From Sabellastarte sp. h YS-2021 (Eukaryota > Annelida > Polychaeta > Sabellida > Sabellidae), in NCBI GenBank assembly GCA_964017235.1, contig OZ024936.1:8842496-8906495 (forward strand): DNA of 64,000 nucleotides. Direction: 5' to 3'. Both the position numbers and the translations under genes were made by a program. Below are positions 37,188 to 64,000 of this stretch, piece after piece. Under the pieces are notes generated by a model. It had not been told where the DNA came from, made no database searches, and saw nothing but the letters and a program-made list of their open reading frames with translations. Position 1 is the first letter of the stretch. Each line of letters opens with the position of its first letter.

Positions 37188-37236
37188 TGTCATTTCAGTG
37201 TGTGTTCCTTGCTAGGGGCCATCTGTATAGATAAAC

Positions 37237-45700: not shown

Positions 45701-48700
45701 TCACACAGGAGTCGCCCCTGAAATGAATTTTAGTATTGTGTTCCTTCAGAAATACATATGTAGCCCAAAGTACAGGTTCAGGGAGTGTAGTTGGCGAGGG
45801 ATAGGTAAAATGCCAGATCAGCCCAAACCACCCCTTAAAGTTGGTCAATCTGGCTGAAATTTTTACAGGAAACTCAGTTTATATCAGAGAATGAATTTGT
45901 ATTAGGCTGGCATACTCGAGGGCCACATTAAAAATTTCAATTTCCGGGGTGTGGGGGGGGCCCCAGGTTACCCCTCAGGTGGAAGATGTCAATTATATTC
46001 TAATATTGCCAATCTGAAGCCCAAATTTAATTTTATGCATATTCTAATAATTAATGGGGATATTTTAGGCACATTTGGAGCATTACATGTCTAACCAGAA
46101 AATATTTCACCAAAATAGTGTTCTAAATATAGCCAAAAATAGATGTAAATCAGCCCAAACCAGTACCAAATATTGGTCTATAAGTCTGAAATTTGGCCTA
46201 AAAATCACTTGCCACATACTAAATCTGACTGCATAGGTTTTAGGATTACATCTGGTATACCAGTGGTGTCATATGTGTCATATGTGATCCAGGAAGGCGA
46301 AAATACAGCCTCAGATGGCTGTATCAGGAAATGCTGATATATTCTCAATTAAGGTAGATTCAAGGTTGAAAACCATATTGAATCACACAGGAGTCGCCCC
46401 TGAAATGAATTTTAGTATTGTGTTCCTTCAGAAATACATATGTAGCCCAAAGTACAGGTTCAGGGAGTGTAGTTGGCGAGGGATAGGTAAAATGCCAGAT
46501 CAGCCCAAACCACCCCTTAAAGTTGGTCAATCTGGCTGAAATTTTTACAGGAAACTCAGTTTATATCAGAGAATGAATTTGTATTAGGCTGGCATACTCG
46601 AGGGCCACATTAAAAATTTCAATTTCCGGGGTGTGGGGGGGCCCCAGGTTACCCCTCAGGTGGAAGATGTCAATTATATTCTAATATTGCCAATCTGAAG
46701 CCCAAATTTAATTTTATGCATATTCTAATAATTAATGAGGATATTTTAGGCACATTTGGAGCATTACATGTCTAACCAGAAAATATTTCACCAAAATAGT
46801 GTTTTAAATATAGCCAAAAATAGATGTAAATCAGCCCAAACCAGTACCAAATATTGGTCTATAAGTCTGAAATTTGGCCTAAAAATCACTTGCCACATAC
46901 TAAATCTGACTGCATAGGTTTTAGGATTACATCTGGTATACCAGTGGTGTCATATGTGTCATATTTGATCCAGGAAGGCGAAAATACAGCCTCAGATGGC
47001 TGTATCAGGAAATGCTGATATATTCTCAATTAAGGTAGATTCAAGGTTGAAAACCATATTGAATCACACAGGAGTCGCCCCTGAAATGAATTTTAGTATT
47101 GTGTTCCTTCAGAAATACATATGTAGCCCAAAGTACAGGTTCAGGGAGTGTAGTTGGCGAGGGATAGGTAAAATGCCAGATCAGCCCAAACCACCCCTTA
47201 AAGTTGGTCAATCTGGCTGAAATTTTTACAGGAAACTCAGTTTATATCAGAGAATGAATTTGTATTAGGCTGGCATACTCGAGGGCCACATTAAAAATTT
47301 CAATTTCCGGGGTGTGGGGGGGGGCCCCAGGTTACCCCTCAGGTGGAAGATGTCAATTATATTCTAATATTGCCAATCTGAAGCCCAAATTTAATTTTAT
47401 GCATATTCTAATAATTAATGAGGATATTTTAGGCACATTTGGAGCATTACATGTCTAACCAGAAAATATTTCACCAAAATAGTGTTCTAAATATAGCCAA
47501 AAATAGATGTAAATCAGCCCAAACCAGTACCAAATATTGGTCTATAAGTCTGAAATTTGGCCTAAAAATCACTTGCCACATACTAAATCTGACTGCATAG
47601 GTTTTAGGATTACATCTGGTATACCAGTGGTGTCATATGTGTCATATGTGATCCAGGAAGGCGAAAATACAGCCTCAGATGGCTGTATCAGGAAATGCTG
47701 ATATATTCTCAATTAAGGTAGATTCAAGGTTGAAAACTATATTGAATCACACAGGAGTCGCCCCTGAAATGAATTTTAGTATTGTGTTCCTTCAGAAATA
47801 CATATGTAGCCCAAAGTACAGGTTCAGGGAGTGTAGTTGGCGAGGGATAGGTAAAATGCCAGATCAGCCCAAACCACCCCTTAAAGTTGGTCAATCTGGC
47901 TGAAATTTTTACAGGAAACTCAGTTTATATCAGAGAATGAATTTGTATTAGGCTGGCATACTCGAGGGCCACATTAAAAATTTCAATTTCCGGGGTGTGG
48001 GGGGGGCCCCAGGTTACCCCTCAGGTGGAAGATGTCAATTATATTCTAATATTGCCAATCTGAAGCCCAAATTTAATTTTATGCATATTCTAATAATTAA
48101 TGAGGATATTTTAGGCACATTTGGAGCATTACATGTCTAACCAGAAAATATTTCACCAAAATAGTGTTCTAAATATAGCCAAAAATAGATGTAAATCAGC
48201 CCAAACCAGTACCAAATATTGGTCTATAAGTCTGAAATTTGGCCTAAAAATCACTTGCCACATACTAAATCTGACTGCATAGGTTTTAGGATTACATCTG
48301 GTATACCAGTGGTGTCATATGTGTCATATGTGATCCAGGAAGGCGAAAATACAGCCTCAGATGGCTGTATCAGGAAATGCTGATATATTCTCAATTAAGG
48401 TAGATTCAAGGTTGAAAACCATATTGAATCACACAGGAGTCGCCCCTGAAATGAATTTTAGTATTGTGTTCCTTCAGAAATACATATGTAGCCCAAAGTA
48501 CAGGTTCAGGGAGTGTAGTTGGCGAGGGATAGGTAAAATGCCAGATCAGCCCAAACCACCCCTTAAAGTTGGTCAATCTGGCTGAAATTTTTACAGGAAA
48601 CTCAGTTTATATCAGAGAATGAATTTGTATTAGGCTGGCATACTCGAGGGCCACATTAAAAATTTCAATTTCCGGGGTGTGGGGGGGCCCCAGGTTACCC

Positions 48701-51700
48701 CTCAGGTGGAAGATGTCAATTATATTCTAATATTGCCAATCTGAAGCCCAAATTTAATTTTATGCATATTCTAATAATTAATGAGGATATTTTAGGCACA
48801 TTTGGAGCATTACATGTCTAACCAGAAAATATTTCACCAAAATAGTGTTCTAAATATAGCCAAAAATAGATGTAAATCAGCCCAAACCAGTACCAAATAT
48901 TGGTCTATAAGTCTGAAATTTGGCCTAAAAATCACTTGCCACATACTAAATCTGACTGCATAGGTTTTAGGATTACATCTGGTATACCAGTGGTGTCATA
49001 TGTGTCATATTTGATCCAGGAAGGCGAAAATACAGCCTCAGATGGCTGTATCAGGAAATGCTGATATATTCTCAATTAAGGTAGATTCAAGGTTGAAAAC
49101 CATATTGAATCACACAGGAGTCGCCCCTGAAATGAATTTTAGTATTGTGTTCCTTCAGAAATACATATGTAGCCCAAAGTACAGGTTCAGGGAGTGTAGT
49201 TGGCGAGGGATAGGTAAAATGCCAGATCAGCCCAAACCACCCCTTAAAGTTGGTCAATCTGGCTGAAATTTTTACAGGAAACTCAGTTTATATCAGAGAA
49301 TGAATTTGTATTAGGCTGGCATACTCGAGGGCCACATTAAAAATTTCAATTTCCGGGGTGTGGGGGGGCCCCAGGTTACCCCTCAGGTGGAAGATGTCAA
49401 TTATATTCTAATATTGCCAATCTGAAGCCCAAATTTAATTTTATGCATATTCTAATAATTAATGAGGATATTTTAGGCACATTTGGAGCATTACATGTCT
49501 AACCAGAAAATATTTCACCAAAATAGTGTTCTAAATATAGCCAAAAATAGATGTAAATCAGCCCAAACCAGTACCAAATATTGGTCTATAAGTCTGAAAT
49601 TTGGCCTAAAAATCACTTGCCACATACTAAATCTGACTGCATAGGTTTTAGGATTACATCTGGTATACCAGTGGTGTCATATGTGTCATATGTGATCCAG
49701 GAAGGCGAAAATACAGCCTCAGATGGCTGTATCAGGAAATGCTGATATATTCTCAATTAAGGTAGATTCAAGGTTGAAAACTATATTGAATCACACAGGA
49801 GTCGCCCCTGAAATGAATTTTAGTATTGTGTTCCTTCAGAAATACATATGTAGCCCAAAGTACAGGTTCAGGGAGTGTAGTTGGCGAGGGATAGGTAAAA
49901 TGCCAGATCAGCCCAAACCACCCCTTAAAGTTGGTCAATCTGGCTGAAATTTTTACAGGAAACTCAGTTTATATCAGAGAATGAATTTGTATTAGGCTGG
50001 CATACTCGAGGGCCACATTAAAAATTTCAATTTCCGGGGTGTGGGGGGGCCCCAGGTTACCCCTCAGGTGGAAGATGTCAATTATATTCTAATATTGCCA
50101 ATCTGAAGCCCAAATTTAATTTTATGCATATTCTAATAATTAATGAGGATATTTTAGGCACATTTGGAGCATTACATGTCTAACCAGAAAATATTTCACC
50201 AAAATAGTGTTCTAAATATAGCCAAAAATAGATGTAAATCAGCCCAAACCAGTACCAAATATTGGTCTATAAGTCTGAAATTTGGCCTAAAAATCACTTG
50301 CCACATACTAAATCTGACTGCATAGGTTTTAGGATTACATCTGGTATACCAGTGGTGTCATATGTGTCATATGTGATCCAGGAAGGCGAAAATACAGCCT
50401 CAGATGGCTGTATCAGGAAATGCTGATATATTCTCAATTAAGGTAGATTCAAGGTTGAAAACCATATTGAATCACACAGGAGTCGCCCCTGAAATGAATT
50501 TTAGTATTGTGTTCCTTCAGAAATACATATGTAGCCCAAAGTACAGGTTCAGGGAGTGTAGTTGGCGAGGGATAGGTAAAATGCCAGATCAGCCCAAACC
50601 ACCCCTTAAAGTTGGTCAATCTGGCTGAAATTTTTACAGGAAACTCAGTTTATATCAGAGAATGAATTTGTATTAGGCTGGCATACTCGAGGGCCACATT
50701 AAAAATTTCAATTTCCGGGGTGTGGGGGGGCCCCAGGTTACCCCTCAGGTGGAAGATGTCAATTATATTCTAATATTGCCAATCTGAAGCCCAAATTTAA
50801 TTTTATGCATATTCTAATAATTAATGAGGATATTTTAGGCACATTTGGAGCATTACATGTCTAACCAGAAAATATTTCACCAAAATAGTGTTCTAAATAT
50901 AGCCAAAAATAGATGTAAATCAGCCCAAACCAGTACCAAATATTGGTCTATAAGTCTGAAATTTGGCCTAAAAATCACTTGCCACATACTAAATCTGACT
51001 GCATAGGTTTTAGGATTACATCTGGTATACCAGTGGTGTCATATGTGTCATATGTGATCCAGGAAGGCGAAAATACAGCCTCAGATGGCTGTATCAGGAA
51101 ATGCTGAAATATTCTCAATTAAGGTAGATTCAAGGTTGAAAACCATATTGAATCACACAGGAGTCGCCCCTGAAATGAATTTTAGTATTGTGTTCCTTCA
51201 GAAATACATATGTAGCCCAAAGTACAGGTTCAGGGAGTGTAGTTGGCGAGGGATAGGTAAAATGCAAGATCAGCCCAAACCACCCCTTAAAGTTGGTCAA
51301 TCTGGCTGAAATTTTTACAGGAAACTCAGTTTATATCAGAGAATGAATTTGTATTAGGCTGGCATACTCGAGGGCCACATTAAAAATTTCAATTTCCGGG
51401 GTGTGGGGGGCCCCAGGTTACCCCTCAGGTGGAAGATGTCAATTATATTCTAATATTGCCAATCTGAAGCCCAAATTTAATTTTATGCATATTCTAATAA
51501 TTAATGAGGATATTTTAGGCACATTTGGAGCATTACATGTCTAACCAGAAAATATTTCACCAAAATAGTGTTCTAAATATAGCCAAAAATAGATGTAAAT
51601 CAGCCCAAACCAGTACCAAATATTGGTCTATAAGTCTGAAATTTGGCCTAAAAATCACTTGCCACATACTAAATCTGACTGCATAGGTTTTAGGATTACA

Positions 51701-54700
51701 TCTGGTATACCAGTGGTGTCATATGTGTCATATGTGATCCAGGAAGGCGAAAATACAGCCTCAGATGGCTGTATCAGGAAATGCTGATATATTCTCAATT
51801 AAGGTAGATTCAAGGTTGAAAACCATATTGAATCACACAGGAGTCGCCCCTGAAATGAATTTTAGTATTGTGTTCCTTCAGAAATACATATGTAGCCCAA
51901 AGTACAGGTTCAGGGAGTGTAGTTGGCGAGGGATAGGTAAAATGCCAGATCAGCCCAAACCACCCCTTAAAGTTGGTCAATCTGGCTGAAATTTTTACAG
52001 GAAACTCAGTTTATATCAGAGAATGAATTTGTATTAGGCTGGCATACTCGAGGGCCACATTAAAAATTTCAATTTCCGGGGTGTGGGGGGGGGCCCCAGG
52101 TTACCCCTCAGGTGGAAGATGTCAATTATATTCTAATATTGCCAATCTGAAGCCCAAATTTAATTTTATGCATATTCTAATAATTAATGAGGATATTTTA
52201 GGCACATTTGGAGCATTACATGTCTAACCAGAAAATATTTCACCAAAATAGTGTTCTAAATATAGCCAAAAATAGATGTAAATCAGCCCAAACCAGTACC
52301 AAATATTGGTCTATAAGTCTGAAATTTGGCCTAAAAATCACTTGCCACATACTAAATCTGACTGCATAGGTTTTAGGATTACATCTGGTATACCAGTGGT
52401 GTCATATGTGTCATATTTGATCCAGGAAGGCGAAAATACAGCCTCAGATGGCTGTATCAGGAAATGCTGATATATTCTCAATTAAGGTAGATTCAAGGTT
52501 GAAAACCACATTGAATCACACAGGAGTCGCCCTTGAAATGAATTTTAGTATTGTGTTCCTTCAGAAATACATATGTAGCCCAAAGTACAGGTTCAGGGAG
52601 TGTAGTTGGCGAGGGATAGGTAAAATGCCAGATCAGCCCAAACCACCCCTTAAAGTTGGTCAATCTGGCTGAAATTTTTACAGGAAACTCAGTTTATATC
52701 AGAGAATGAATTTGTATTAGGCTGGCATACTCGAGGGCCACATTAAAAATTTCAATTTCCGGGGTGTGGGGGGGCCCCAGGTTACCCCTCAGGTGGAAGA
52801 TGTCAATTATATTCTAATATTGCCAATCTGAAGCCCAAATTTAATTTTATGCATATTCTAATAATTAATGAGGATATTTTAGGCACATTTGGAGCATTAC
52901 ATGTCTAACCAGAAAATATTTCACCAAAATAGTGTTTTAAATATAGCCAAAAATAGATGTAAATCAGCCCAAACCAGTACCAAATATTGGTCTATAAGTC
53001 TGAAATTTGGCCTAAAAATCACTTGCCACATACTAAATCTGACTGCATAGGTTTTAGGATTACATCTGGTATACCAGTGGTGTCATATGTGTCATATGTG
53101 ATCCAGGAAGGCGAAAATACAGCCTCAGATGGCTGTATCAGGAAATGCTGATATATTCTCAATTAAGGTAGATTCAAGGTTGAAAACCATATTGAATCAC
53201 ACAGGAGTCGCCCCTGAAATGAATTTTAGTATTGTGTTCCTTCAGAAATACATATGTAGCCCAAAGTACAGGTTCAGGGAGTGTAGTTGGCGAGGGATAG
53301 GTAAAATGCCAGATCAGCCCAAACCACCCCTTAAAGTTGGTCAATCTGGCTGAAATTTTTACAGGAAACTCAGTTTATATCAGAGAATGAATTTGTATTA
53401 GGCTGGCATACTCGAGGGCCACATTAAAAATTTCAATTTCCGGGGTGTGGGGGGGGCCCCAGGTTACCCCTCAGGTGGAAGATGTCAATTATATTCTAAT
53501 ATTGCCAATCTGAAGCCCAAATTTAATTTTATGCATATTCTAATAATTAATGAGGATATTTTAGGCACATTTGGAGCATTACATGTCTAACCAGAAAATA
53601 TTTCACCAAAATAGTGTTCTAAATATAGCCAAAAATAGATGTAAATCAGCCCAAACCAGTACCAAATATTGGTCTATAAGTCTGAAATTTGGCCTAAAAA
53701 TCACTTGCCACATACTAAATCTGACTGCATAGGTTTTAGGATTACATCTGGTATACCAGTGGTGTCATATGTGTCATATTTGATCCAGGAAGGCGAAAAT
53801 ACAGCCTCAGATGGCTGTATCAGGAAATGCTGATATATTCTCAATTAAGGTAGATTCAAGGTTGAAAACCATATTGAATCACACAGGAGTCGCCCTTGAA
53901 ATGAATTTTAGTATTGTGTTCCTTCAGAAATACATATGTAGCCCAAAGTACAGGTTCAGGGAGTGTAGTTGGCGAGGGATAGGTAAAATGCCAGATCAGC
54001 CCAAACCACCCCTTAAAGTTGGTCAATCTGGCTGAAATTTTTACAGGAAACTCAGTTTATATCAGAGAATGAATTTGTATTAGGCTGGCATACTCGAGGG
54101 CCACATTAAAAATTTCAATTTCCGGGGTGTGGGGGGGCCCCAGGTTACCCCTCAGGTGGAAGATGTCAATTATATTCTAATATTGCCAATCTGAAGCCCA
54201 AATTTAATTTTATGCATATTCTAATAATTAATGAGGATATTTTAGGCACATTTGGAGCATTACATGTCTAACCAGAAAATATTTCACCAAAATAGTGTTT
54301 TAAATATAGCCAAAAATAGATGTAAATCAGCCCAAACCAGTACCAAATATTGGTCTATAAGTCTGAAATTTGGCCTAAAAATCACTTGCCACATACTAAA
54401 TCTGACTGCATAGGTTTTAGGATTACATCTGGTATACCAGTGGTGTCATATGTGTCATATGTGATCCAGGAAGGCGAAAATACAGCCTCAGATGGCTGTA
54501 TCAGGAAATGCTGATATATTCTCAATTAAGGTAGATTCAAGGTTGAAAACCACATTGAATCACACAGGAGTCGCCCTTGAAATGAATTTTAGTATTGTGT
54601 TCCTTCAGAAATACATATGTAGCCCAAAGTACAGGTTCAGGGAGTGTAGTTGGCGAGGGATAGGTAAAATGCCAGATCAGCCCAAACCACCCCTTAAAGT

Positions 54701-57111
54701 TGGTCAATCTGGCTGAAATTTTTACAGGAAACTCAGTTTATATCAGAGAATGAATTTGTATTAGGCTGGCATACTCGAGGGCCACATTAAAAATTTCAAT
54801 TTCCGGGGTGTGGGGGGGCCCCAGGTTACCCCTCAGGTGGAAGATGTCAATTATATTCTAATATTGCCAATCTGAAGCCCAAATTTAATTTTATGCATAT
54901 TCTAATAATTAATGAGGATATTTTAGGCACATTTGGAGCATTACATGTCTAACCAGAAAATATTTCACCAAAATAGTGTTTTAAATATAGCCAAAAATAG
55001 ATGTAAATCAGCCCAAACCAGTACCAAATATTGGTCTATAAGTCTGAAATTTGGCCTAAAAATCACTTGCCACATACTAAATCTGACTGCATAGGTTTTA
55101 GGATTACATCTGGTATACCAGTGGTGTCATATGTGTCATATGTGATCCAGGAAGGCGAAAATACAGCCTCAGATGGCTGTATCAGGAAATGCTGATATAT
55201 TCTCAATTAAGGTAGATTCAAGGTTGAAAACCATATTGAATCACACAGGAGTCGCCCCTGAAATGAATTTTAGTATTGTGTTCCTTCAGAAATACATATG
55301 TAGCCCAAAGTACAGGTTCAGGGAGTGTAGTTGGCGAGGGATAGGTAAAATGCCAGATCAGCCCAAACCACCCCTTAAAGTTGGTCAATCTGGCTGAAAT
55401 TTTTACAGGAAACTCAGTTTATATCAGAGAATGAATTTGTATTAGGCTGGCATACTCGAGGGCCACATTAAAAATTTCAATTTCCGGGGTGTGGGGGGGC
55501 CCCAGGTTACCCCTCAGGTGGAAGATGTCAATTATATTCTAATATTGCCAATCTGAAGCCCAAATTTAATTTTATGCATATTCTAATAATTAATGAGGAT
55601 ATTTTAGGCACATTTGGAGCATTACATGTCTAACCAGAAAATATTTCACCAAAATAGTGTTCTAAATATAGCCAAAAATAGATGTAAATCAGCCCAAACC
55701 AGTACCAAATATTGGTCTATAAGTCTGAAATTTGGCCTAAAAATCACTTGCCACATACTAAATCTGACTGCATAGGTTTTAGGATTACATCTGGTATACC
55801 AGTGGTGTCATATGTGTCATATGTGATCCAGGAAGGCGAAAATACAGCCTCAGATGGCTGTATCAGGAAATGCTGATATATTCTCAATTAAGGTAGATTC
55901 AAGGTTGAAAACCATATTGAATCACACAGGAGTCGCCCCTGAAATGAATTTTAGTATTGTGTTCCTTCAGAAATACATATGTAGCCCAAAGTACAGGTTC
56001 AGGGAGTGTAGTTGGCGAGGGATAGGTAAAATGCAAGATCAGCCCAAACCACCCCTTAAAGTTGGTCAATCTGGCTGAAATTTTTACAGGAAACTCAGTT
56101 TATATCAGAGAATGAATTTGTATTAGGCTGGCATACTCGAGGGCCACATTAAAAATTTCAATTTCCGGGGTGTGGGGGGCCCCAGGTTACCCCTCAGGTG
56201 GAAGATGTCAATTATATTCTAATATTGCCAATCTGAAGCCCAAATTTAATTTTATGCATATTCTAATAATTAATGAGGATATTTTAGGCACATTTGGAGC
56301 ATTACATGTCTAACCAGAAAATATTTCACCAAAATAGTGTTCTAAATATAGCCAAAAATAGATGTAAATCAGCCCAAACCAGTACCAAATATTGGTCTAT
56401 AAGTCTGAAATTTGGCCTAAAAATCACTTGCCACATACTAAATCTGACTGCATAGGTTTTAGGATTACATCTGGTATACCAGTGGTGTCATATGTGTCAT
56501 ATGTGATCCAGGAAGGCGAAAATACAGCCTCAGATGGCTGTATCAGGAAATGCTGATATATTCTCAATTAAGGTAGATTCAAGGTTGAAAACCATATTGA
56601 ATCACACAGGAGTCGCCCCTGAAATGAATTTTAGTATTGTGTTCCTTCAGAAATACATATGTAGCCCAAAGTACAGGTTCAGGGAGTGTAGTTGGCGAGG
56701 GATAGGTAAAATGCCAGATCAGCCCAAACCACCCCTTAAAGTTGGTCAATCTGGCTGAAATTTTTACAGGAAACTCAGTTTATATCAGAGAATGAATTTG
56801 TATTAGGCTGGCATACTCGAGGGCCACATTAAAAATTTCAATTTCCGGGGTGTGGGGGGGCCCCAGGTTACCCCTCAGGTGGAAGATGTCAATTATATTC
56901 TAATATTGCCAATCTGAAGCCCAAATTTAATTTTATGCATATTCTAATAATTAATGAGGATATTTTAGGCACATTTGGAGCATTACATGTCTAACCAGAA
57001 AATATTTCACCAAAATAGTGTTCTAAATATAGCCAAAAATAGATGTAAATCAGCCCAAACCAGTACCAAATATTGGTCTATAAGTCTGAAATTTGGCCTA
57101 AAAATCACTTG
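39742..57111 (+). repeat. 681-bp satellite array, right part
   Basis: Continuation of the same array in the same orientation and exact phase, with 25 full units (landmark frame at 40176 through 56534) plus a partial last unit cut off at 57111 by the Polinton. Units share private variants with the left part. The acttggcacat plus ttctctatt pair occurs in the units at 27797, 43588 and 44950, and the accaccgctt variant at 27313 and 44466. Local higher-order structure is present too: catatttgatcc variants are spaced by 2 and 3 units (45599, 46964, 49008) and the atgcaag variant by 7 units (51262 and 56031). No gene is supported. Confidence 0.97.
57106..57111. other. Probable left copy of a 6-bp target-site duplication
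   Basis: The satellite breaks immediately after cacttg. Polintons duplicate 6 bp on insertion, so cacttg is the predicted target duplication. The right element end lies outside the window, so the second copy cannot be seen. Confidence 0.55.
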
Positions 57112-57340
57112 AGTAGTATAGGAGATACTATGGTCACGCAAGGGGGATTGTAGTCACACAATCTACGTGGTCCCCCTGTGGGGGTTGTATAGATTTTTGT
57201 GACCAGCAGTCACGGCCCATCTGTGTGAGGAGGGGGATATGGGGGAGTTGGGGGGTTGTATAGATTTTTGTGACCAGCAGTCACGGCCCATCTGTGTGAG
57301 GAGGGGGATATGGGGTAGTTGGGGGGTTTACTTAATGCAG
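57112..57340 (+). repeat. Left terminal region of the Polinton (terminal inverted repeat expected)
   Basis: It starts AGTAGTATAGGAGATACTA, where tagtat and atacta form a 6-bp inverted pair at the very tip. A second inverted pair, aggggga/tccccct, follows within 40 bp. The region is G-rich and non-coding. How far the terminal inverted repeat extends cannot be judged without the right end. Confidence 0.65.
57180..57321 (+). repeat. 71-bp direct tandem duplication in the Polinton terminus
   Basis: Two adjacent 71-bp copies (57180-57250 and 57251-57321), each containing ttgtatagatttttgtgac and gtgtgaggagggggatat, differ at one base only. The start of a third copy (ggggggtt) follows. Subterminal direct repeats like these occur in transposons as transposase-binding or replication-related sites. 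That role is inference here. Confidence 0.85.
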
Positions 57341-57360
57341 GGTGTTAATTATCTGTGAAA

Positions 57361-57369
57361 ATATATATT
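57361..57369 (+). promoter_or_regulatory. TATA-like box of the BIR gene
   Basis: The sequence atatatatt lies about 40 bp upstream of the ATG at 57407, a spacing that allows a short 5' leader. It belongs to the TATATA type also seen before the TBP and integrase genes. Confidence 0.5.
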
Positions 57370-57406
57370 GGGTAGTAAACCGATTTCGCTTTCATAAACC
57401 ATCGAG

Positions 57407-57886
57407 ATGTCGAAGGAGCAAGATCACGCAGTAGACGGTAGAATCGGAGGCTTTTCATTCGGGACCAGTTCTACAAATGGACCGACTATGTCGAAGGAGC
57501 ATACCGACAATGCTAGAATAGGAGGCTTTGCATTGTCAACGAATCAGGACACTGTTGAGAAAGGTGTATTCGAAGGTTTCTCTGTGTTGAAGCATACTAA
57601 ATATTTGCTTTATTCGTCTAGAATGGCAACCTTTAATACATGGCCAAAAGCCATGCCTATCACTGCCAAAGAATTAGCGCATGCAGGATTTATTTATACT
57701 GGCTATGCTGACAAGGTACATTGTCCCTGGTGTAGCATTACTTTGTACTCTTTCGAAACTAGAGACAGCGCTTACGAAGAGCACCTGAAGCACAGTAAAG
57801 GATGCCAGTACCTTCTGATGACAGTTCCCGACAAGTTCACCGACATCAACGGATTATGTCCTACAAAGGGACACGGACTATTTTAA
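57407..57886 (+). CDS. Single-BIR inhibitor-of-apoptosis-like protein
   Basis: A 159-residue ORF. Residues 66-137 form a BIR domain: SRMATFNTWP, then AGFIYTGYADKVHCPWC, then EEHLKHSKGC. The zinc ligands C106, C109, H126 and C133 fit the classic C-x2-C-x16-H-x6-C spacing exactly. There is no RING or CARD. The N-terminus has an internal duplication, MSKE...RIGGF at residues 1-15 and again at 28-41. BIR proteins of this short kind bind caspases or IAP-binding motifs, so the likely role is to block host-cell death, as with IAPs of large DNA viruses (inference). It is the first gene of the element, on the + strand, with its own TATA-like box upstream. The ORF looks whole. Confidence 0.88.
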   Translation: MSKEQDHAVDGRIGGFSFGTSSTNGPTMSKEHTDNARIGGFALSTNQDTVEKGVFEGFSVLKHTKYLLYSSRMATFNTWPKAMPITAKELAHAGFIYTGYADKVHCPWCSITLYSFETRDSAYEEHLKHSKGCQYLLMTVPDKFTDINGLCPTKGHGLF

Positions 57887-58122
57887 AAAATTCTAGAATA
57901 TAGAAACACATACACGCACATTTTTTCTTCCAACCAATCAAATTGCAGCAATTATGGTCCCACCAAGCGAAGCACCCTGTCTTATAGTCACACCAATCAA
58001 ATTGCATGAATTATGGTCAAAATGCTGGATTTAACGTCACACCAATCAGAAGCAGGCATTCGATTATAAAATTGATGAGCATCTCTATAAATATATCGCA
58101 ACGTAGCATTCGGGCAGCAAAC
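57887..58122 (+). promoter_or_regulatory. CCAAT/TATA promoter region of the second + strand gene
   Basis: This non-coding stretch has three CCAATCA boxes at 57934, 57993 and 58042. The first two belong to a 26-bp imperfect direct repeat (CCAATCAAATTGCA, then aattatggtc) with a 59-bp spacing. The third is preceded by cgtcacac. A TATA box, tctataaata, follows at 58084-58093, about 35 bp before the ATG at 58123 and about 40 bp after the last CCAAT box. This is a textbook polymerase II promoter arrangement. An ATG at 58006 opens the same frame but lies within this promoter, upstream of the TATA box, so it was not chosen. Confidence 0.7.
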
Positions 58123-58902
58123 ATGGAATTGACAGCAGAAAAGAGCAAGTTCAACGAGACTACTTTCGTGCGTCTCAGCAAAAACAACCGTTACATTTGC
58201 TTTTCCAGTAACGTCTGGAAGAAGCTTTCAAATCAATTCCATAGCATAACCGAGGCTCTGAAGAATGAACAAAATTTCAAGTTCGAACTTACCAAAGAAT
58301 CTAACCTGGAGACGCTTCCCTTTTACGGCAAGATGTACGTCTGCTTTAAGAGGAATAATCTGTACATCAATTTGGACGAAATCCAATGGAAAGAGTTTCA
58401 AGAGAAAGCCCTCGAGATTTTCTCACCGGCGGATAAAGAAAACATTCCTCCTGAACCTACCTTAACCAAGTACCTTTACAGCGCTGAGCACGGATCTCCT
58501 AAATCGTTCTTCTCCAAGACGTCTCTGAAGCAGTACGCCGAACAGGAAGGGTGGCCCTACACTATAACCGAGAAAAAGGCTCCTGCCCCGGACAAACAGA
58601 AACTCGTCAGACTCGTTAGAGCCTATATGACCCAAAAGGCAGCGTCGGATCTCGTTAGAGAGCACTGCTATGGTTGTCAATACGACATGCTGGGACAGAG
58701 GGACCATAGCTGTTTAGAAGAAGACGCGGAACAAAATTACTTGCATTTGATCTCTTTAAGTAATGTGGCAGAAAACATCGAGAAAGTTTTCAAGATTTTA
58801 GGACTACAAGAAGTCGAATATGCGCCATTGGAGGAAACTACCCTACCAGTGTTAGAGACTATTCCCGAAGACTACAAACTGCTGTTCCGAGAGACCCTAT
58901 AA
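58123..58902 (+). CDS. Conserved Polinton cargo protein with Cys/His motif
   Basis: A 259-residue protein, start chosen at 58123 because the TATA box lies about 35 bp upstream. The C-terminal segment REHCYGCQYDMLGQRDHSC has C182, C185, H195 and C197 (C-x2-C-x9-H-x-C), a probable zinc-binding motif. I recall similar REHCYGC...H.C segments in uncharacterised invertebrate proteins linked to such elements. The N-terminal 100 residues contain two similar stretches, YICFSSNVWKKL and MYVCFKRNNLYINLDEIQW, which faintly recall the beta-sheet and helix pattern of PC4-like single-strand DNA-binding coactivators. That is a weak suggestion. A stretch near 100-115 is Pro/Glu-rich and probably a linker. Function unknown; nucleic-acid binding is the best guess. 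A polyadenylation signal follows 35 bp after the stop. Confidence 0.7.
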   Translation: MELTAEKSKFNETTFVRLSKNNRYICFSSNVWKKLSNQFHSITEALKNEQNFKFELTKESNLETLPFYGKMYVCFKRNNLYINLDEIQWKEFQEKALEIFSPADKENIPPEPTLTKYLYSAEHGSPKSFFSKTSLKQYAEQEGWPYTITEKKAPAPDKQKLVRLVRAYMTQKAASDLVREHCYGCQYDMLGQRDHSCLEEDAEQNYLHLISLSNVAENIEKVFKILGLQEVEYAPLEETTLPVLETIPEDYKLLFRETL

Positions 58903-58937
58903 ACTTTCAATTTCTCTATGTTTTATGTGAAATGTTC

Positions 58938-58943
58938 AATAAA
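58938..58943 (+). terminator. Polyadenylation signal AATAAA
   Basis: AATAAA lies 35 bp after the stop codon of the 259-residue gene and is followed by GT-rich sequence (atatgtgtactctgtaa), fitting cleavage and polyadenylation there. Confidence 0.6.
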
Positions 58944-58993
58944 ATATGTGTACTCTGTAAATATTAGTTTTTTTCCAGGGTTTCCTGGTCCCC

Positions 58994-59056
58994 CCTTCCT
59001 CGGAAGGTATTATTTGTTCGCAGACAAGGGTATCGTCTCGGGACCCCAACCGAGAC
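58994..59056. other. Two hairpins between convergent genes
   Basis: CCTTCC-tc-GGAAGG at 58994-59007 and GTCTCGG/CCGAGAC with an 8-nt loop at 59035-59056. The second directly adjoins the stop codon of the minus-strand 68-residue ORF. They lie between the convergent gene ends and could act as a two-way 3'-end structure. This is inference. Confidence 0.45.
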
Positions 59057-59263
59057 TCATTGTTGCCAGGATTCAATCACTTGACCATCTTTTAGCACTC
59101 TCACATTTATTAGGTCGTTACCGAATCTGGCTTGACCGTACTGTAATCCAGCCATCGCACACTCTTTGGCATCCGCATATTTCTTCTTGCTGGGTAATTT
59201 TTCCAAGTATTCTATCGTATACGTATACTTTGCGATACTAGGGTGATATCTGACATGCTCCAT
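59057..59263 (-). CDS. Small hypothetical protein (68 residues)
   Basis: The ORF has no recognised domain. The sequence is well mixed (for example YTIEYLEKLPSKKKYADAKE and LINVRVLKDGQVIESW) and reads as a small folded alpha/beta protein, so I treat it as a probable gene. It is the last minus-strand ORF before the convergent + strand gene. Its ATG follows directly on a long A-rich tract (minus-strand sense), and a TATAAAAG sequence lies about 85 bp upstream, just after the TBP stop codon. The stop codon is followed at once by a 7-bp-stem hairpin. Function unknown. Confidence 0.45.
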   Translation of the reverse strand: MEHVRYHPSIAKYTYTIEYLEKLPSKKKYADAKECAMAGLQYGQARFGNDLINVRVLKDGQVIESWQQ

Positions 59264-59264
59264 C

Positions 59265-59340
59265 TTTTTTTTTTGATTTTGTTTTTTATTTTTTTTTTGT
59301 TTTTTTTTTGTTTTTTTTTGTATTTTTTATTTATTTTTTC
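59265..59340. repeat. T-rich low-complexity tract (A-rich on the minus strand)
   Basis: Runs of 6-10 T separated by single G or A. On the minus strand it is A-rich, contains AATAAA (59330-59335) about 23 bp after the TBP stop codon, and ends at the ATG of the 68-residue ORF. It could serve both as 3' end of the TBP transcript and as an A-rich leader of the next gene. Confidence 0.7.
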
Positions 59341-59357
59341 GTATTTTGTCTGTACTT

Positions 59358-59852
59358 TTATAACACTTCTAACTCTAGTAAAACAGCATTAACTTTGTTA
59401 TCCAAATCTTTTTCGGATTTTATTCCAGTCACAATCGTTTTACCGCTTTTATAAACGGTATAATGTATCCCCTCTCTTATAAAGCCCACAGCATGAAAGA
59501 TTTCCGGTTCATAAGAACCTTGCATCCATTGTACTATTTTGCAATAGTCTACTTTTCCTCGTAAAGTATATACAGCACTCATAGTAAGCGTTTTGATTTT
59601 CTTCATCCTTACCGGATATCCCATTCTTTCCACTAACCTGGCGTATCGTCTCATTTGTTCTTTCCCTCCGTGACAAATAATTTTTCCGGTAGAATAAATC
59701 ATGCAAGTGCATCCGATTTTCCTATGTCTCCACAATAATCTTTCAAACGACAAAGAATGGTACTCGATGTCGATCTTCGTTTCTGCCATATCGCGCAGAT
59801 TTAATGGACATCCCAAATCGCTGTAAAGCACTCGATGCGTTAACTTGGCCAT
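59358..59852 (-). CDS. TATA-binding protein (TBP) homologue
   Basis: A 164-residue protein that is nearly only the TBP core domain (about 180 residues in eukaryotes). It has the two-fold repeat of TBP. Repeat 1: LGCPLNLRDMA (compare the TBP segment LGCKLDLKTIA), then EYHSLSFERLLWR, CTCMIYSTGKIICHGGK and YARLVERMGYP. Repeat 2: GSYEPEIFHAVGF, YTVYKSGKTIVTGIKS and the final helix. The spacing of both SGK/TGK loops and the YEPE box matches TBP closely. The positions of the four DNA-intercalating Phe residues read F36, Y53, F119 and Y134. The expected role is binding a TATA-like element and recruiting RNA polymerase, possibly favouring the element's own promoters. It starts 18 bp after the stop of the membrane-protein gene, with a TATATA sequence at 59891-59896 about 40 bp upstream. 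The ORF looks whole. It is unlikely to be a host TBP because it is so divergent and is embedded in the element's gene block. Confidence 0.87.
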   Translation of the reverse strand: MAKLTHRVLYSDLGCPLNLRDMAETKIDIEYHSLSFERLLWRHRKIGCTCMIYSTGKIICHGGKEQMRRYARLVERMGYPVRMKKIKTLTMSAVYTLRGKVDYCKIVQWMQGSYEPEIFHAVGFIREGIHYTVYKSGKTIVTGIKSEKDLDNKVNAVLLELEVL

Positions 59853-59870
59853 CTGGACTCGAACTGATCA

Positions 59871-60380
59871 TTAAACCAAACTCTCTTCCGTATATATCTT
59901 CAAATGAGCATTCGGTTCGTTTAAGGGTTTTTTGGTATACTGGTATATTATCCGATAACCTCCTACTAAACCCAGAAGCGAAAACGGAATGAATGTTAAA
60001 AAGAATGGCCACAAGAAAACTTCGTTACCTTCCGTTATTTCAATCGTAGATAGAGAGTCTCTTGGACAATCGCTATTCACGTAGATATGGCTGCTCCATC
60101 CCTCCAGCTCTCTACAACTGGAATACCTATTGCCAATCCAATTTAACATAGCAAGATTAGGCCAGTCATCTAAATCCGGTATTTGGGATAAGCTGCTATT
60201 AACAATATCCAGCATATCAATATTCCATATATCCGAACTATTAAATCTCGGAAACTCTTCTATTTCTTTACAGGATATTAAACTCAGAGACTCGTAGCAT
60301 CGACACACCGCTGGTTCACCACAAGGTTTGCAATAAAACCCGGGTATCCAAAAGAAAATCAAGAAATACTTCGCATACAT
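59871..60380 (-). CDS. Small LRR-type single-pass membrane protein
   Basis: A 169-residue protein. Residues 1-16 form a hydrophobic signal peptide. Five Cys (17, 20, 26, 28, 37) in the pattern C-x5-C-x-C-x8-C resemble an LRRNT cap. One or two leucine-rich-repeat-like turns follow (LDIVNSSLSQIPDL, then WPNLAMLNWIGN), then two more Cys (89 and 105). Residues 121-146 are a clear membrane helix with a short basic cytoplasmic start (YTKKP). NSS at 47 and 61 are possible N-glycosylation sites. The predicted topology is an outside N-terminus with an ectodomain of about 100 residues. It lies between the capsid gene and TBP, with a strong TATA-like motif upstream. It could be a virion surface protein or an immune decoy, both speculative. 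I know no standard Polinton gene like it. Confidence 0.7.
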   Translation of the reverse strand: MYAKYFLIFFWIPGFYCKPCGEPAVCRCYESLSLISCKEIEEFPRFNSSDIWNIDMLDIVNSSLSQIPDLDDWPNLAMLNWIGNRYSSCRELEGWSSHIYVNSDCPRDSLSTIEITEGNEVFLWPFFLTFIPFSLLGLVGGYRIIYQYTKKPLNEPNAHLKIYTEESLV

Positions 60381-60415
60381 CCTGAATGACTCATTTTTAG
60401 ACCTGTTCCTCCCCT

Positions 60416-60426
60416 TTTATAGACTT
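60416..60426 (-). promoter_or_regulatory. TATA-like motif of the membrane-protein gene
   Basis: On the minus strand it reads AAGTCTATAAAAGGGGAGG, about 35-40 bp before the ATG at 60380. A second TATAAAG lies just upstream and contains the TAA stop codon of the capsid gene. Confidence 0.65.
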
Positions 60427-60428
60427 CT

Positions 60429-61682
60429 TTATAGGATATTTCTGGCAGCATCCACTCTTATTTCAGCCGGAAAAGATGCGTACAGCAAGACGGTAGCATT
60501 TTCTTCTAAAGCCTTGGCAAATTTTAAATTGATTCTGGTATGCCCGCATTTCTTCTGATTTACCACATCCCCGCCTACTCTTCCCAAAATTCTAAATATG
60601 TATATGCAGTAACCGTTGGGATATTCTTTCATTTCTATACACCGACCGTATCTAGGTTCCTCGCACATCAGGGTCCAGTAAGCTTCAGCAAAATCTCCAT
60701 TGGTATAGTTAGGCGTAATAGCTTGAGATGGAACGGACACTCCATCTACCATAACCTCTGCGAAATTTAATTGGTAATTTTTAAAATTAAAGGGATTTTC
60801 AGAGTAATTACCATTGAATGCGCTTCCGCTGCACAACACTATTTTTATCTCAGAGGGTATGCTCCCGTGATACACGTCATCGGCAGACCACCCGTAACTT
60901 CCCTTTTCTATATTGAAAGCTTTTAAATCGGACTTCCAAAACGGGTACACGGCGCATTGCTTTGGTATTCTTTTTTCATGCGCTACCACCATACCAGGGC
61001 TTAGTTTCACCTGACAGACTCTCAAAGAGGCGTATTGTATTTCAACTTTGTAGTCGTCGGTAGTCTCAGCCATGAGTCGAAAAGGATCTTCGTGCTGGTA
61101 AAGTTTCATACGAATTCTAATACCATTGATGATAAATTTCTTTTGTTGACAAATATCCATTCTAATAGGGCCTTCTAAAAAGACTGTATTACCTTTACTC
61201 GTCCGTTTGTACCTTCGGTCGAACCCGATATTACTGGTCGAGTCGCTATCCATTGCGTCATAAGAGTCTTTATGGAATAGTTCGTTATTTAATATTCCCT
61301 TGGTATCTCCGATGTTACTGTTTAAAAGGGCATCTAAATACGCTTTGTAAGGATAATAAGAGCCCACGCTTGCGGTAATCAGCCTCTGGTTTAACTCGAT
61401 GTCTACTTGTCTGAACAAACTTTGCAATCCAAGGTTTGCTAAACATACTTTGTCCTCTTCGGTCACAGGTTTATCCTCCCCCGTTACGATGCGTAGGCCC
61501 ACTCTCAATCTACTTCTATTTAAATCGATATATGCGGCAGAATTTCCGGGTATATCGAATTCTAAGGGAGCATTTCTTCCTATCACGCCCTGAGGGGCAT
61601 AGGGAATCCATTCCGTTTTTTCAATGAAAGAATCCGTATGGGTCTCTTCGAACAAATGCAAATTAGATTCGTACACCTCCAT
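60429..61682 (-). CDS. Polinton major capsid-type protein
   Basis: A 417-residue protein starting at the ATG at 61682. The N-terminal half has the sequence features of the uncharacterised F54H12.2-like family common in invertebrate genomes and Polintons: PLEFDIPGNSAAYIDLNRSR, SLFRQVDIELNQRLI, SYYPYKAYLDALLN and then a FHKD box. This family is the likely double jelly-roll capsid protein of the elements. The rest is predicted beta-rich with no membrane segment, as expected for two jelly rolls. Its ATG overlaps the preceding stop codon (TGATG), so the basic-protein and capsid genes may be translationally coupled, although a TATA-like motif about 35 bp upstream also offers a separate promoter. 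At 417 residues it is shorter than many Polinton capsid proteins I recall. The ORF looks whole. Confidence 0.75.
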   Translation of the reverse strand: MEVYESNLHLFEETHTDSFIEKTEWIPYAPQGVIGRNAPLEFDIPGNSAAYIDLNRSRLRVGLRIVTGEDKPVTEEDKVCLANLGLQSLFRQVDIELNQRLITASVGSYYPYKAYLDALLNSNIGDTKGILNNELFHKDSYDAMDSDSTSNIGFDRRYKRTSKGNTVFLEGPIRMDICQQKKFIINGIRIRMKLYQHEDPFRLMAETTDDYKVEIQYASLRVCQVKLSPGMVVAHEKRIPKQCAVYPFWKSDLKAFNIEKGSYGWSADDVYHGSIPSEIKIVLCSGSAFNGNYSENPFNFKNYQLNFAEVMVDGVSVPSQAITPNYTNGDFAEAYWTLMCEEPRYGRCIEMKEYPNGYCIYIFRILGRVGGDVVNQKKCGHTRINLKFAKALEENATVLLYASFPAEIRVDAARNIL

Positions 61683-62050
61683 CACGAAAATATATCTTTT
61701 CGCACCGTCCTTCGACCTCTTATAGACTTTTTAACCCTCTTGACTGTTGTATTTTTCCTCTTAGGTTTTTTATTTACGCTATTATTACCAGTCTTCTTTT
61801 TTTTCTGAGTCGGTTTTCCCGTTCCAGCTTTCTTTTTCTGCGCCTGTTTTCTCGTTCCAGCTTTCTTTTTCTGCGCCTGTTTTCTCGTTCCAGCTTTCTT
61901 TTTCTGCGCCGGTTTTCTCATTCCCGTCTTCTTTTTCTGCACCGGTTTTCCCGTTCCTCTCTTCCTTTTGACCAACATTTCAGCCATTTCGGTTTGCTGT
62001 TGCACCGGGCTGATTAATTTAAACGGATGGTAACCTTTGGGTATCCACAT
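61682..62050 (-). CDS. Basic repeat protein, core/DNA-condensing type
   Basis: A 122-residue protein with about 40 percent Lys plus Arg. The middle consists of five 11-residue repeats of the type GTRKQAQKKKA, encoded by 33-bp tandem repeats. The C-terminus has further basic clusters (KKPKRKN, RVKKSIRGRR). Such composition fits a DNA-condensing virion core protein, comparable in role with adenovirus protein VII or mu. That is inference from composition and position between the penton-like and capsid genes. The first ATG (62050) overlaps the end of the upstream gene by 32 bp. An ATG at 61987 would avoid the overlap and also give a fully basic protein, so the start is uncertain. Confidence 0.6.
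   Translation of the reverse strand: MWIPKGYHPFKLISPVQQQTEMAEMLVKRKRGTGKPVQKKKTGMRKPAQKKKAGTRKQAQKKKAGTRKQAQKKKAGTGKPTQKKKKTGNNSVNKKPKRKNTTVKRVKKSIRGRRTVRKDIFS
61717..61732 (-). promoter_or_regulatory. TATA-like motif of the capsid gene
   Basis: On the minus strand it reads AAAAAGTCTATAAGAGGTCG, about 35 bp upstream of the capsid ATG at 61682. It lies within the coding sequence of the basic protein, which shows how compact this block is. Confidence 0.6.
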
Positions 62051-62426
62051 ATTTTTTCCTTAGATACAAGGTACACTCGATATCGCTCAGTTGGTAAGGT
62101 TTTAAGTTTTGATCGAGAATACTCAATCTTATACTCCGCACCTCTGATTTATTCGTTTCTACGAAATATGGTAGCGTATATTGAGCCTCTTTCCCGTCCA
62201 CTCTCCGTAACACAGGGTACTGACTTCCCTTTAAAAAACTCTCTTCGCAAAAGTCCGCTAATACGTAAAAAGTAGATTTCTTTGGGGCCCTTACTTTAAT
62301 ATCCGTCAAGGCTACCTCCCACTTTCCTTGTAAAAGCAAACTTTTTGGCAAATCCACGATAAAATCGTTAGGCCTGTTGAAAGGGTGAACCTCTAAGGAA
62401 TCCTGCCAGCCTATGTAGAGAAACAT
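62019..62426 (-). CDS. Penton-like minor capsid protein
   Basis: A 135-residue protein, predicted all-beta. FIVDLPKSLLLQGKWEVALTDI near the start and YVLADFCEESFLKGSQYPVLR in the middle match a pattern I associate with the small proteins found beside the capsid gene in invertebrate Polintons, where a single jelly-roll penton protein is expected. SIRLSILDQNLKPY is another conserved-looking strand-turn-strand. The size fits a single jelly roll only tightly. It precedes the basic-protein gene and overlaps it. The motif AAAGTTTATAAGAG abuts its ATG directly, so it cannot be an ordinary TATA box at -30 for this ATG. Assignment is by pattern recall and gene position. Confidence 0.6.
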   Translation of the reverse strand: MFLYIGWQDSLEVHPFNRPNDFIVDLPKSLLLQGKWEVALTDIKVRAPKKSTFYVLADFCEESFLKGSQYPVLRRVDGKEAQYTLPYFVETNKSEVRSIRLSILDQNLKPYQLSDIECTLYLRKKYVDTQRLPSV

Positions 62427-62440
62427 CTCTTATAAACTTT
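62427..62440 (-). promoter_or_regulatory. TATA-like motif at the penton-like gene start
   Basis: On the minus strand it reads AAAGTTTATAAGAG and is followed immediately by the ATG at 62426. It overlaps the end of the integrase region. The core is the same as in the motifs before the capsid and small membrane genes, but the spacing to the ATG differs. Confidence 0.45.
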
Positions 62441-63520
62441 TCAAATCTTTATCGGCCACCCAAGAATCAAATTTTTTGGGCCAATGCAACCACCTTACCA
62501 AATGTTCTTTGCGACCTTTAGTTTTACGCGTTTTTAGCACTTTGCTAATTTTCTATTTTCGTCGCTTTGCTCCACTTTCTGCAATTCGGCTTCGTAGAAG
62601 CTTCCTTTTATATCTTCGTCCAAAAAGTCTTTTAAACGATACACATTGATTCCATCCCTCTTATAACGCGCCCTTATTTTGAATATCTCACCGGTCCATT
62701 TGAAATCGTATTCCCTGTCGAAAAGGGTTTTAGTGTGAGTAACTCTTACGTTATCGCCTACTTTAAACTTATAAGGTTTCAGCCGGAAATTTTCGTCCTT
62801 TTCAGGCCAATAGGAATACCACCAGACCGATCTTTCGTTACTCCGACCCACCCTCGCAGGGGGCATACCTATGGTTCTATGATAGCTATAGTTATAAGAT
62901 CGTACAAGCTCTTCTAAATGGTCTATATATTTCTCCTTGTCATAATGAGTGATGTATCTATAAATCATCTTTTTCAGGGTTTTAATTACTCTTTCGGCAA
63001 AATTCGCTTTGGTCTCGTTTTGACTGGTATAAAATTCTATTTTTTCATCTTTCAAAAGCCCTTGTACTTGCTTATTAGAAAATTCTTTTCCTTGGTCGAA
63101 ACGGCACTTTTTAGGTTTGCGCCCCTTTCGAAAAATATCTTCTAAAGCGGCTTTGACCTCTTTACCCGTTTTGTTCTTTAAAGGTCTGACAAAAAGGTAT
63201 TTTGAGAAGACGTCGATGGCAACTAACAGGAACTTTATTCCGTCATTCTTTTTTGCCAAAGACCCTACATCCATTAAATCTACATCCCATTGACTGTCTA
63301 TTCCTTCTACCACTACTCTGCTACGTCTTTTTGGTTTACGCGACTGGCGATGTAAACTGTATGAGTCTTTATTTTTTAGCCAAGTTGCCACCTGGTTCTT
63401 CGTCACATCGAAATTACCCTCTTCTTTCAAGTAGCGATATAACTTCTGCGGTCCCGCAAAACTAGCCGGATTCCCCGGATCGAAGTAATTCTTCTCCAGA
63501 AACTGTTTCCATGGGGTCAT
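62430..63520 (-). pseudogene. Polinton DDE integrase region with chromodomain-like tail
   Basis: Retrovirus-type integrase of the Polinton family. The N-terminal part (YFDPGNPASFAGPQKLYRYL) is a typical Polinton integrase opening. The rve core has WDVDLMDV (D81), RFDQGKEF (D142) and NFAERVIKTLK (E176), the D, D-33-E triad. A later segment, FKVGDNVRV...YDFKWTGEIFKI, is the SH3-like DNA-binding domain. The C-terminal tail has a chromodomain-like W-x2-W-P-x-K-F-x-S-W signature, as in Polinton integrases that read histone marks to choose targets. The enzyme joins the element ends to host DNA and produces the 6-bp target duplication. The region looks broken, with about one break. A TATA-like GGTATATTA lies about 30 bp upstream of the ATG. 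Confidence 0.88.
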
Positions 63521-63647
63521 CCCTGTTTAACAGCTGTAAACAATGTCGTAATATACCGAACCAAAATCCCTTTCCAGTGGGATCGAACAAGGCAGCTATT
63601 ACCACCACCAAACACACAGCTATTCGACAGATGTAACCGATCTTCAT
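63462..63647 (-). CDS. Small hydrophobic protein (61 residues)
   Basis: A 61-residue ORF with one hydrophobic segment, ICRIAVCLVVVIAALF (residues 5-20), which could be a signal anchor or signal peptide, then a short polar tail. It overlaps the start of the integrase by about 58 bp in another frame. Support for it being a gene is the TATA-like motif CAAAAGTTATAAGAGTGGG about 30 bp before its ATG, in the same arrangement as for the capsid and membrane-protein genes. Function unknown. It could instead be a non-coding leader ORF upstream of the integrase. Confidence 0.45.
   Translation of the reverse strand: MKIGYICRIAVCLVVVIAALFDPTGKGFWFGILRHCLQLLNRDDPMETVSGEELLRSGESG
63549..63557 (-). promoter_or_regulatory. 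TATA-like box of the integrase
   Basis: On the minus strand it reads GGTATATTA, about 30-35 bp upstream of the integrase ATG at 63520. It is of the TATATA type, unlike the TATAAGAG type used before the capsid-block genes. Confidence 0.4.
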
Positions 63648-63672
63648 TTTGGTAAAACTGTTAATCCTTGAC

Positions 63673-63690
63673 CCACTCTTATAACTTTTG
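63673..63690 (-). promoter_or_regulatory. TATA-like motif of the small hydrophobic gene
   Basis: On the minus strand it reads CAAAAGTTATAAGAGTGG, about 30-35 bp before the ATG at 63647. Its TAA is at the same time the stop codon of the upstream gene. Confidence 0.5.
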
Positions 63691-64000
63691 CCAAGTACTG
63701 CCCGTCTTTTTATCTCGTCTTGGAAATGGGTTTTTTCTACGGGTAACTACGCTTTTAGGAACATTGACCTCGCATAGTATTTCTAGAAAGGTCCCGTAAT
63801 GGGGAGGGGGAGATTCGCCGTATTCTTGTAGACTATAACGTACTAGGTCTGTAATGTGACTACCCTCCAGGCATTTATCGTTGTAAACCACTTCACCGTT
63901 ATTTTTCCACTCAATACTACCCTGTATGTAACTGAGTAATGAATCCGCTTTACGCTTTAAAGATTTTGGCATAGCCGATACGATCAATTCTTTCTCCAAA
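63679..64000 (-). CDS. Conserved Polinton-associated protein, partial at window edge
   Basis: An open frame of about 106 residues running off the right edge. The frame has no certain ATG at its visible start, and an internal ATG lies at 63972. The segment SLLSYIQGSIEWKNNGEVVY, then GSHITDLVRYSLQ, then HYGTFLEILCEVNVPKSVV, matches a pattern I recall in uncharacterised invertebrate proteins found close to Polinton integrases and capsid genes. The C-terminus is basic (RRKNPFPRRDKK). Function unknown. The pattern reads as a short helical domain, possibly a DNA-binding or virion-associated protein. Confidence 0.55.
   Translation of the reverse strand, partial: LEKELIVSAMPKSLKRKADSLLSYIQGSIEWKNNGEVVYNDKCLEGSHITDLVRYSLQEYGESPPPHYGTFLEILCEVNVPKSVVTRRKNPFPRRDKKTGSTWQKL

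Follow-up and report, generated by a model that had tools for sequence, protein, structure and literature searches.

The locus raises the question of whether a Polinton can carry a TATA-binding protein (TBP) as a gene of its own and, if so, what such a protein would do for the element. In the window, that is, the whole stretch of 64,000 nucleotides analysed, a TBP gene lies between the gene of a membrane protein and the terminal genes, which face outward, of an element with the following features.

57112-64000 (no strand assigned): Polinton part within the window, continuing past the right edge; left end from the satellite junction
57407-57886 (+): BIR-domain protein, from Pfam
58123-58902 (+): 259-aa element protein with no assigned function; its longest frame begins at 58006
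59358-59852 (-): TBP gene, 164 aa, a single open frame without introns, from translation, Pfam, phmmer and genome matches
59871-60380 (-): membrane-protein gene adjoining the TBP gene, with signal-like and membrane-like segments and no Pfam match (LRR-like only by eye), from the ORF and sister-locus matches
60429-61682 (-): major capsid protein (MCP), a double jelly roll by structure prediction
61682-62050 (-): lysine-rich repeat protein
62019-62426 (-): conserved element protein of 135 aa, 36% identical to a 141-aa ORF of L001
62534-63520 (-): integrase (rve), whose frame in the window copy stops before a chromodomain-like stretch located in another frame
63462-63647 (-): 61-aa ORF with a hydrophobic N-terminus
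63679-63972 (-): 97-aa conserved element ORF

The left end was placed at 57112 because the match to a 681-bp satellite stops at 57111, and from this junction the element starts with AG; Polinton/Maverick ends are characterized by terminal inverted repeats starting with AG and by a 6-bp target duplication. The integrase of the window matches rve at 3.9e-13 (Pfam). No ORF for a family B DNA polymerase (PolB) was found within 9.9 kb to the right of the window; in sister copies PolB is present (PF03175, 3.3e-40 beside L038 and 7.6e-37 in L036), and L038 contains an A32-type packaging ATPase candidate just below the cut-off (Pox_A32, 22.4 bits vs 22.8). With its integrase, its predicted double-jelly-roll MCP and the PolB of its sister copies, the element is, as judged by sequence and modelling, a Polinton.

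Other features were noted as well. The outermost element gene encodes the BIR-domain protein, of the inhibitor-of-apoptosis type, which has matches in several sister loci. An acidic protein with WWDDSF motifs adjoins PolB in two families (L038:6408-6800 and L035:5394-5792). Between satellite stretches, at 34767-38323 (+) of the window, a further mobile element has a reverse-transcriptase-like ORF followed by two recombinase-like ORFs, of DIRS/Ngaro type by eye. The near-uniform base composition of 1-33000 and 40000-57111 is consistent with an extended satellite array; its 681-bp period was measured in 54000-57131 only. The 68-aa ORF after the TBP gene showed no similarity to the 76-aa ORF of L001.

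The sequence-only reading had recognized a TBP from motifs of both half-repeats in the right order, and every one of these motifs is found in the translation of 59358-59852(-), an open frame of 164 codons. A profile search bears out this identity: PF00352 matches in two stretches at 2.6e-19, scoring 69.3 bits where the curated cut-off is 22.9. In a phmmer search of PDB (E<=1), 34 of the 35 distinct sequences matched are named TBP, TFIID or TBP fusions, the remaining one being named only ECU04_1440 protein; the best match has an E-value of 5.8e-16. Identity to yeast TBP is 26%, with 42/142 aligned residues identical to human and 41/161 to yeast TBP. The structure model is of low confidence (pLDDT 59, pTM 0.54), and the 44 Foldseek matches that it gave at E<=0.001 are all TBPs or TBP-complex entries, with a TM of only about 0.39-0.47. 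The stirrup phenylalanine positions are occupied by F36, Y53, F119 and Y134, and the acidic TFIIB-contact positions (yeast E186 and E188) by E115 and E117. The sequence matches show that the ORF encodes a two-repeat TBP.

Is this TBP a regular gene of the element? The host genome was scanned (1,785,957,881 bases, or 1.79 Gb, in 647 contigs), and 150 TBP matches were scored out of 289 candidates. Thirty-two of the 150, the window's included, are top-score places with 100% identity and no internal stop in any of them, so that the window gene can be put down neither to chance nor to an assembly artefact confined to one copy. Eight of these loci match the window DNA at 98.6-99.3% identity across 3.4-3.5 kb, and further TBP groups occur at 68, 52, 47, 46 and 44% identity. 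Looking for the gene in other copies had been proposed as a check on the earlier reading, and the 32 top-score places and several families of the host genome provide it.

The genes around the TBP recur as well. In 19 further loci chosen from the TBP list so as to span the identity groups (L012-L030), matches to the MCP and the membrane protein adjoin the TBP on the same strand in 19/19, and the 259-aa gene lies on the opposite strand in 18/19; the gene order of the window is found again in families with MCPs that share 40-47% identity with that of the window. A separate MCP search, in which 100 of 1947 candidates were scored, gave 104 matches that were merged into 100 loci. A scored TBP is located 0.9-2.4 kb downstream of the MCP, on the same strand, in 97 of these 100 loci, with 3 of the 100 having no scored TBP nearby; the 1847 candidates outside the scored set are presumably more distant Polintons. 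The assignment of the TBP to the element, made at first from one copy, is thus upheld by its place beside 97/100 scored MCP loci and by a gene order shared with divergent families. The canonical TBP of the host is shown to be a separate gene, with three exon rows (at least three exons) at C2:73,622,790-73,633,700 whose identity to yeast TBP is 73-78%; for the element TBP matches as a whole it is about 23-33%.

Selection was estimated by Nei-Gojobori dN/dS on 17 chosen TBP pairs, mutually non-independent, of which 11 were computable: eight gave 0.13-0.20, one pair near saturation gave 0.08, and two very close pairs gave 0.26 and 0.43. The other six could not be computed, five being saturated at synonymous sites and one having no synonymous change. 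The element TBP is under purifying selection, and TBP is shown to be a regular gene of this Polinton lineage.

Some copies are arranged as inverted pairs of element gene blocks with their heads facing (L016/L017/L037 at C7:34.62-34.64 Mb, L024/L025 and L026/L027). The C7 pair has two ATPase ORFs pointing at each other across about 1 kb, too short a gap for PolB, and such pairs may be palindromic PolB-less dimers.

Relatives of the window TBP are also present in other data sets, with 18 found by phmmer and 367 matches in a profile search, of which the best 120 were used. Two TBP relatives and MCP relatives are located on contigs of identical size (54,364 and 419,610 bases), which suggests that they share the same contigs. 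In IMG/VR, no relative was confirmed by scans with P0001, P0014, A1, A3, A4, A5 (the MCP alignment) or the MCP of L002, nor was one by a GTDB contig scan with A2, and none was found in phage records. In a tree of 103 rows, 92 element-type TBP rows are split from the cellular TBPs and human TBPL1 with support 100/97, P0103 and P0118 joining the element-type rows only at 96/67.

Conservation of single residues was tabulated in yeast numbering for 94 family rows, all 140 aa or longer, drawn from the listed phmmer matches and the best 120 of the 367 profile matches; P0003, P0004, P0006, P0019 and shorter rows are outside the table. Seven comparison rows were set apart by eye (human, yeast, P0111, P0112, P0114, P0121 and P0123), P0112 being itself divergent at several DNA contacts. 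At positions that we take to contact DNA, N159 is replaced by T in 88/94 and V161 by S in 91/94 family rows among the matches listed, T124 gives way to N in 43 and to H in 31, and L205 is kept in 2. Among the same listed rows, the stirrups hold F at position 99 in 86/94 (F or Y in 90), F in 63 and Y in 30 at position 116 (F or Y in 93/94), F in 69 at position 190, and F, Y and H in 37, 33 and 23 at position 207; T215 is T in 89/94. The TFIIB-contact residues are kept as E186 in 78, P187 in 93 and E188 in 93 of the 94 listed family rows, and K or R occupies positions 133, 138 and 145, presumably the host-regulator patch, in 75, 65 and 77 of them. Positions 69 and 124 are coupled among the matches listed (N-N 42, H-H 23 and N-H 3 of 94), and these states look like a maintained DNA surface.

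The octamer TATAAGAG was first spotted by eye and counted afterwards; it is the top-ranked octamer of the minus-strand block, with 5 occurrences vs 0.22 expected under an order-2 model. The broader pattern TATAA[A/G]AG occurs 9 times vs 0.63 expected on the minus (coding) strand of the element part, and not at all on the plus strand. The boxes located before genes include the following.

58086-58093 (+): TATAAATA box, starting 37 nt before the 259-aa ORF
60414-60421 (-): TATAAAAG box, starting 41 nt before the membrane-protein ATG
61717-61724 (-): TATAAGAG box, starting 42 nt before the MCP ATG, within the lysine-rich ORF
63676-63683 (-): TATAAGAG box, starting 36 nt before the 61-aa ORF

Boxes also start 36 nt before the 97-aa ORF and 31 nt before the ATPase, and a box lies 26-50 nt upstream of 3/10 annotated minus-strand ATGs vs 1/105 other ATGs. 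Among the nine TATAA[A/G]AG boxes, four fall within the TBP and integrase coding sequences, remote from any start, another follows directly on the TBP gene and one stands 8 nt from an ATG. No such box was found at the expected place before the TBP, integrase, 135-aa and lysine-rich starts of the window, nor any box at the PolB starts of L035, L036, L038 and L039. The Leu-stop (TTATAA) that ends one frame lies within the TATAAGAG box of the next gene at window 63683 and 62434 and at L001 956 and 1449, the box at window 62434 being the one only 8 nt from an ATG.

The sixth base of the box varies. In one and the same element it is G before the MCP and the 61-aa ORF and A before the membrane protein, the 97-aa ORF and the ATPase, and it changes between families and copies as well (L026/L027 vs L029 before the MCP). 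The 68% family has TATAAAAG boxes at the corresponding sites (8 vs 0.33-0.36 expected, some in coding sequence), and fewer boxes are kept in the 52% and 47% families. As both A and G occur at position 6 in the window family, the element boxes are best described as putative TATA boxes whose sixth base varies, which is not proof of matched specificity. The first idea, that changed DNA contacts explain a non-canonical TATAAGAG box, was reduced to a possibility: by eye, the TBPs of L012 and L013, from the 68% family, are the same as the window TBP at H69, V71, M114, Y116, I122, H124, T159, S161 and Y207, yet their boxes read TATAAAAG. This identity of residues, together with the A/G variation within the element and between copies, weakens the claim of altered specificity, and no change matching that at box position 6 is visible in the TBP DNA face. 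A baculovirus-like late initiator was also considered, as TAAG, which is such an initiator, is contained in TATAAGAG; a TATA box fits better because the boxes of sister copies have the sequence TATAAAAG and the ORFs examined showed no RNA polymerase gene. A table of octamers that are frequent in cellular core promoters includes TATAAGAG (PMC9504043) and, the boxes being near-canonical, the host TBP might suffice to bind them.

L001 is a Polinton piece, with an MCP 39% identical, that lies terminally on a scaffold from a Solemya velum symbiont, and is probably host DNA within the clam-symbiont assembly; retrotransposon-like sequence was also seen by eye at this scaffold end. It was examined after the motif had been named and is thus sequence that was not used in defining TATAAGAG, which occurs 5 times in 4.4 kb vs 0.06 expected and at most 2 times in 2000 simulations. 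Three of these boxes start 39, 36 and 41 nt before 3/6 ORFs and the other two are inside a lysine-rich ORF.

L002 is a contig of 10,082 bp labelled as a Rickettsiaceae MAG and probably misbinned, with an MCP distant from that of the window (22%, 4e-26) and a chromo-integrase; adenain-like protease candidates, in L002 as in L001, are below the Pfam cut-off. At L002:5700-6922 a TBP (PF00352, 2.5e-8) overlaps a TFIIB (PF00382, 1.5e-8) by 4 bp. The TBP is above the Pfam cut-off; its best phmmer match is only 0.0046, to archaeal TBPs, hhalign against A1 and A3 gives a probability of 3-4%, and its branch in the 103-row tree is 3.4-4.1. Similarity outside Pfam is weak, and this candidate TBP may stand outside the window family. 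By eye, the residue that it carries at E186 is N (YNRELF), and TATAAGAG occurs once in the contig. L002 would represent a very different Polinton-like element that pairs TBP with TFIIB; in the window element no TFIIB was found among eight distal ORFs tested.

Recruitment of host TFIIB and Pol II to the element promoters by the element TBP is the best reading of these data, and one that we consider rather probable. Direction of Pol II to element genes is inferred because the TFIIB face is kept and TATA boxes precede some of these genes. Specifically, the element TBP would bind the TATA-type boxes that lie a short way before element genes via its altered DNA-contact surface, its conserved C-terminal stirrup (YEPEIF) would be presented to host TFIIB, and host Pol II would thereby be loaded onto the element promoters. 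It is conceivable, with a chance a little short of even, that a Polinton clade, small beside the TBP-bearing giant viruses, brings an initiation factor with a host TFIIB socket and a re-tooled DNA surface, and so a promoter channel of its own that runs via host Pol II, L002 going further with TBP plus TFIIB.

The same TFIIB face, combined with DNA-floor residues changed family-wide among the matches listed (N159T 88/94, V161S 91/94, T124 as N 43 and H 31), would also suit a decoy that titrates host TFIIB (or TFIIA/Brf) in the absence of productive promoter binding and thereby depresses transcription of the host during element activity. This is improbable, as the stirrup aromatics are kept in the listed rows (90/94 at the F99 position, 93/94 at F116), as is T215 (89/94), the coupled 69/124 states (N-N 42, H-H 23 of 94 listed) resemble a maintained DNA surface, and TATA boxes precede some element genes. 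TBP folds bend DNA, and a role as a bending protein in replication, integration or packaging rather than transcription would follow from this general property; it would leave the kept TFIIB-contact residues unexplained, and we give it slim odds. A partnership with Brf-type factors instead of TFIIB, leading to Pol III or another polymerase, draws on the use of the same TBP interface by Brf1/2, as stated in PMC7221094, and is very improbable for protein genes, several of which have TATA boxes 31-42 nt before the ATG. A recent chance capture of the host TBP gene, or an assembly artefact, has next to no probability: no evidence in its favour was found, the protein is 26% identical to yeast TBP vs 73-78% for the host TBP exons, and the gene occurs in many copies, in divergent families and in relatives from other data sets, so that the case of a single copy nearly identical to a host TBP does not hold. 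If recruitment of host TFIIB is the correct reading, a DNA element with no transcription polymerase gene of its own would gain promoter control over host Pol II by means of a natural TBP with altered DNA contacts and a host-type TFIIB face, which would bear on the origin or movement of TBP-TFIIB systems among Polintons and larger viruses.

How does this TBP compare with known systems? No title or abstract opening found on Polinton, Maverick or virophage TBP or TFIIB reports a Polinton TBP, subscription literature being mostly outside this scope, and a term search of the available text of PMC11071296, PMC11071308, PMC10120064, PMC10675990, PMC4642659, PMC7805220, PMC12220804 and PMC8097293 gave no TBP in Polintons. 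TBPs are described, in the accessible parts of the respective papers, in mirusviruses (PMC10132985), in large algal viruses and megavirus (PMC4602308, PMC11464507) and in elements with mirusvirus-like MCP genes (PMC10675990). With cellular TBP, the TFIID core (PF00352), the window TBP has in common the two repeats, the stirrups and the YEPE[IL]F TFIIB face; it differs in N159, V161, T124 and L205, in a shorter stretch after repeat 1, in its single exon and in having no N-terminal tail. The metazoan paralogues TRF1/TRF2/TRF3 are likewise extra TBPs with altered DNA-contact residues, but human TBPL1 (long branch) groups with the cellular TBPs, outside the element family. The poxvirus factors VITF-3 / VETF are virus-coded initiation factors with a TBP-like fold that, according to PMC12917281, work with a viral RNA polymerase and show minimal sequence conservation, whereas the element TBP is found by plain sequence search.

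Large dsDNA viruses (PMC7221094) and mirusviruses (PMC10132985) are, in the available text, DNA-virus lineages with a TBP of their own, like the element. According to the same portion of PMC7221094, viral TBPs hold the DNA-binding signature positions at 50-90% with TFIIB and regulator positions diverged, about 40% conserve the first acidic TFIIB position (the equation of these positions with yeast E186/E188 being our own mapping), some viral TBPs keep acidic residues, and almost all TBP-bearing viruses surveyed carry their own TFIIB. The present element is instead a Polinton with a host-type TFIIB face and no TFIIB of its own in the eight ORFs tested. With Polinton/Maverick elements and adintoviruses (MELD) it shares the rve integrase and the double-jelly-roll MCP, as well as PolB in sister copies and an A32-like ATPase candidate just under the cut-off, and it differs from them in its TBP and BIR genes. 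While the TBPs of giant viruses and mirusviruses are already in print, here a Polinton keeps a TBP beside its capsid gene.
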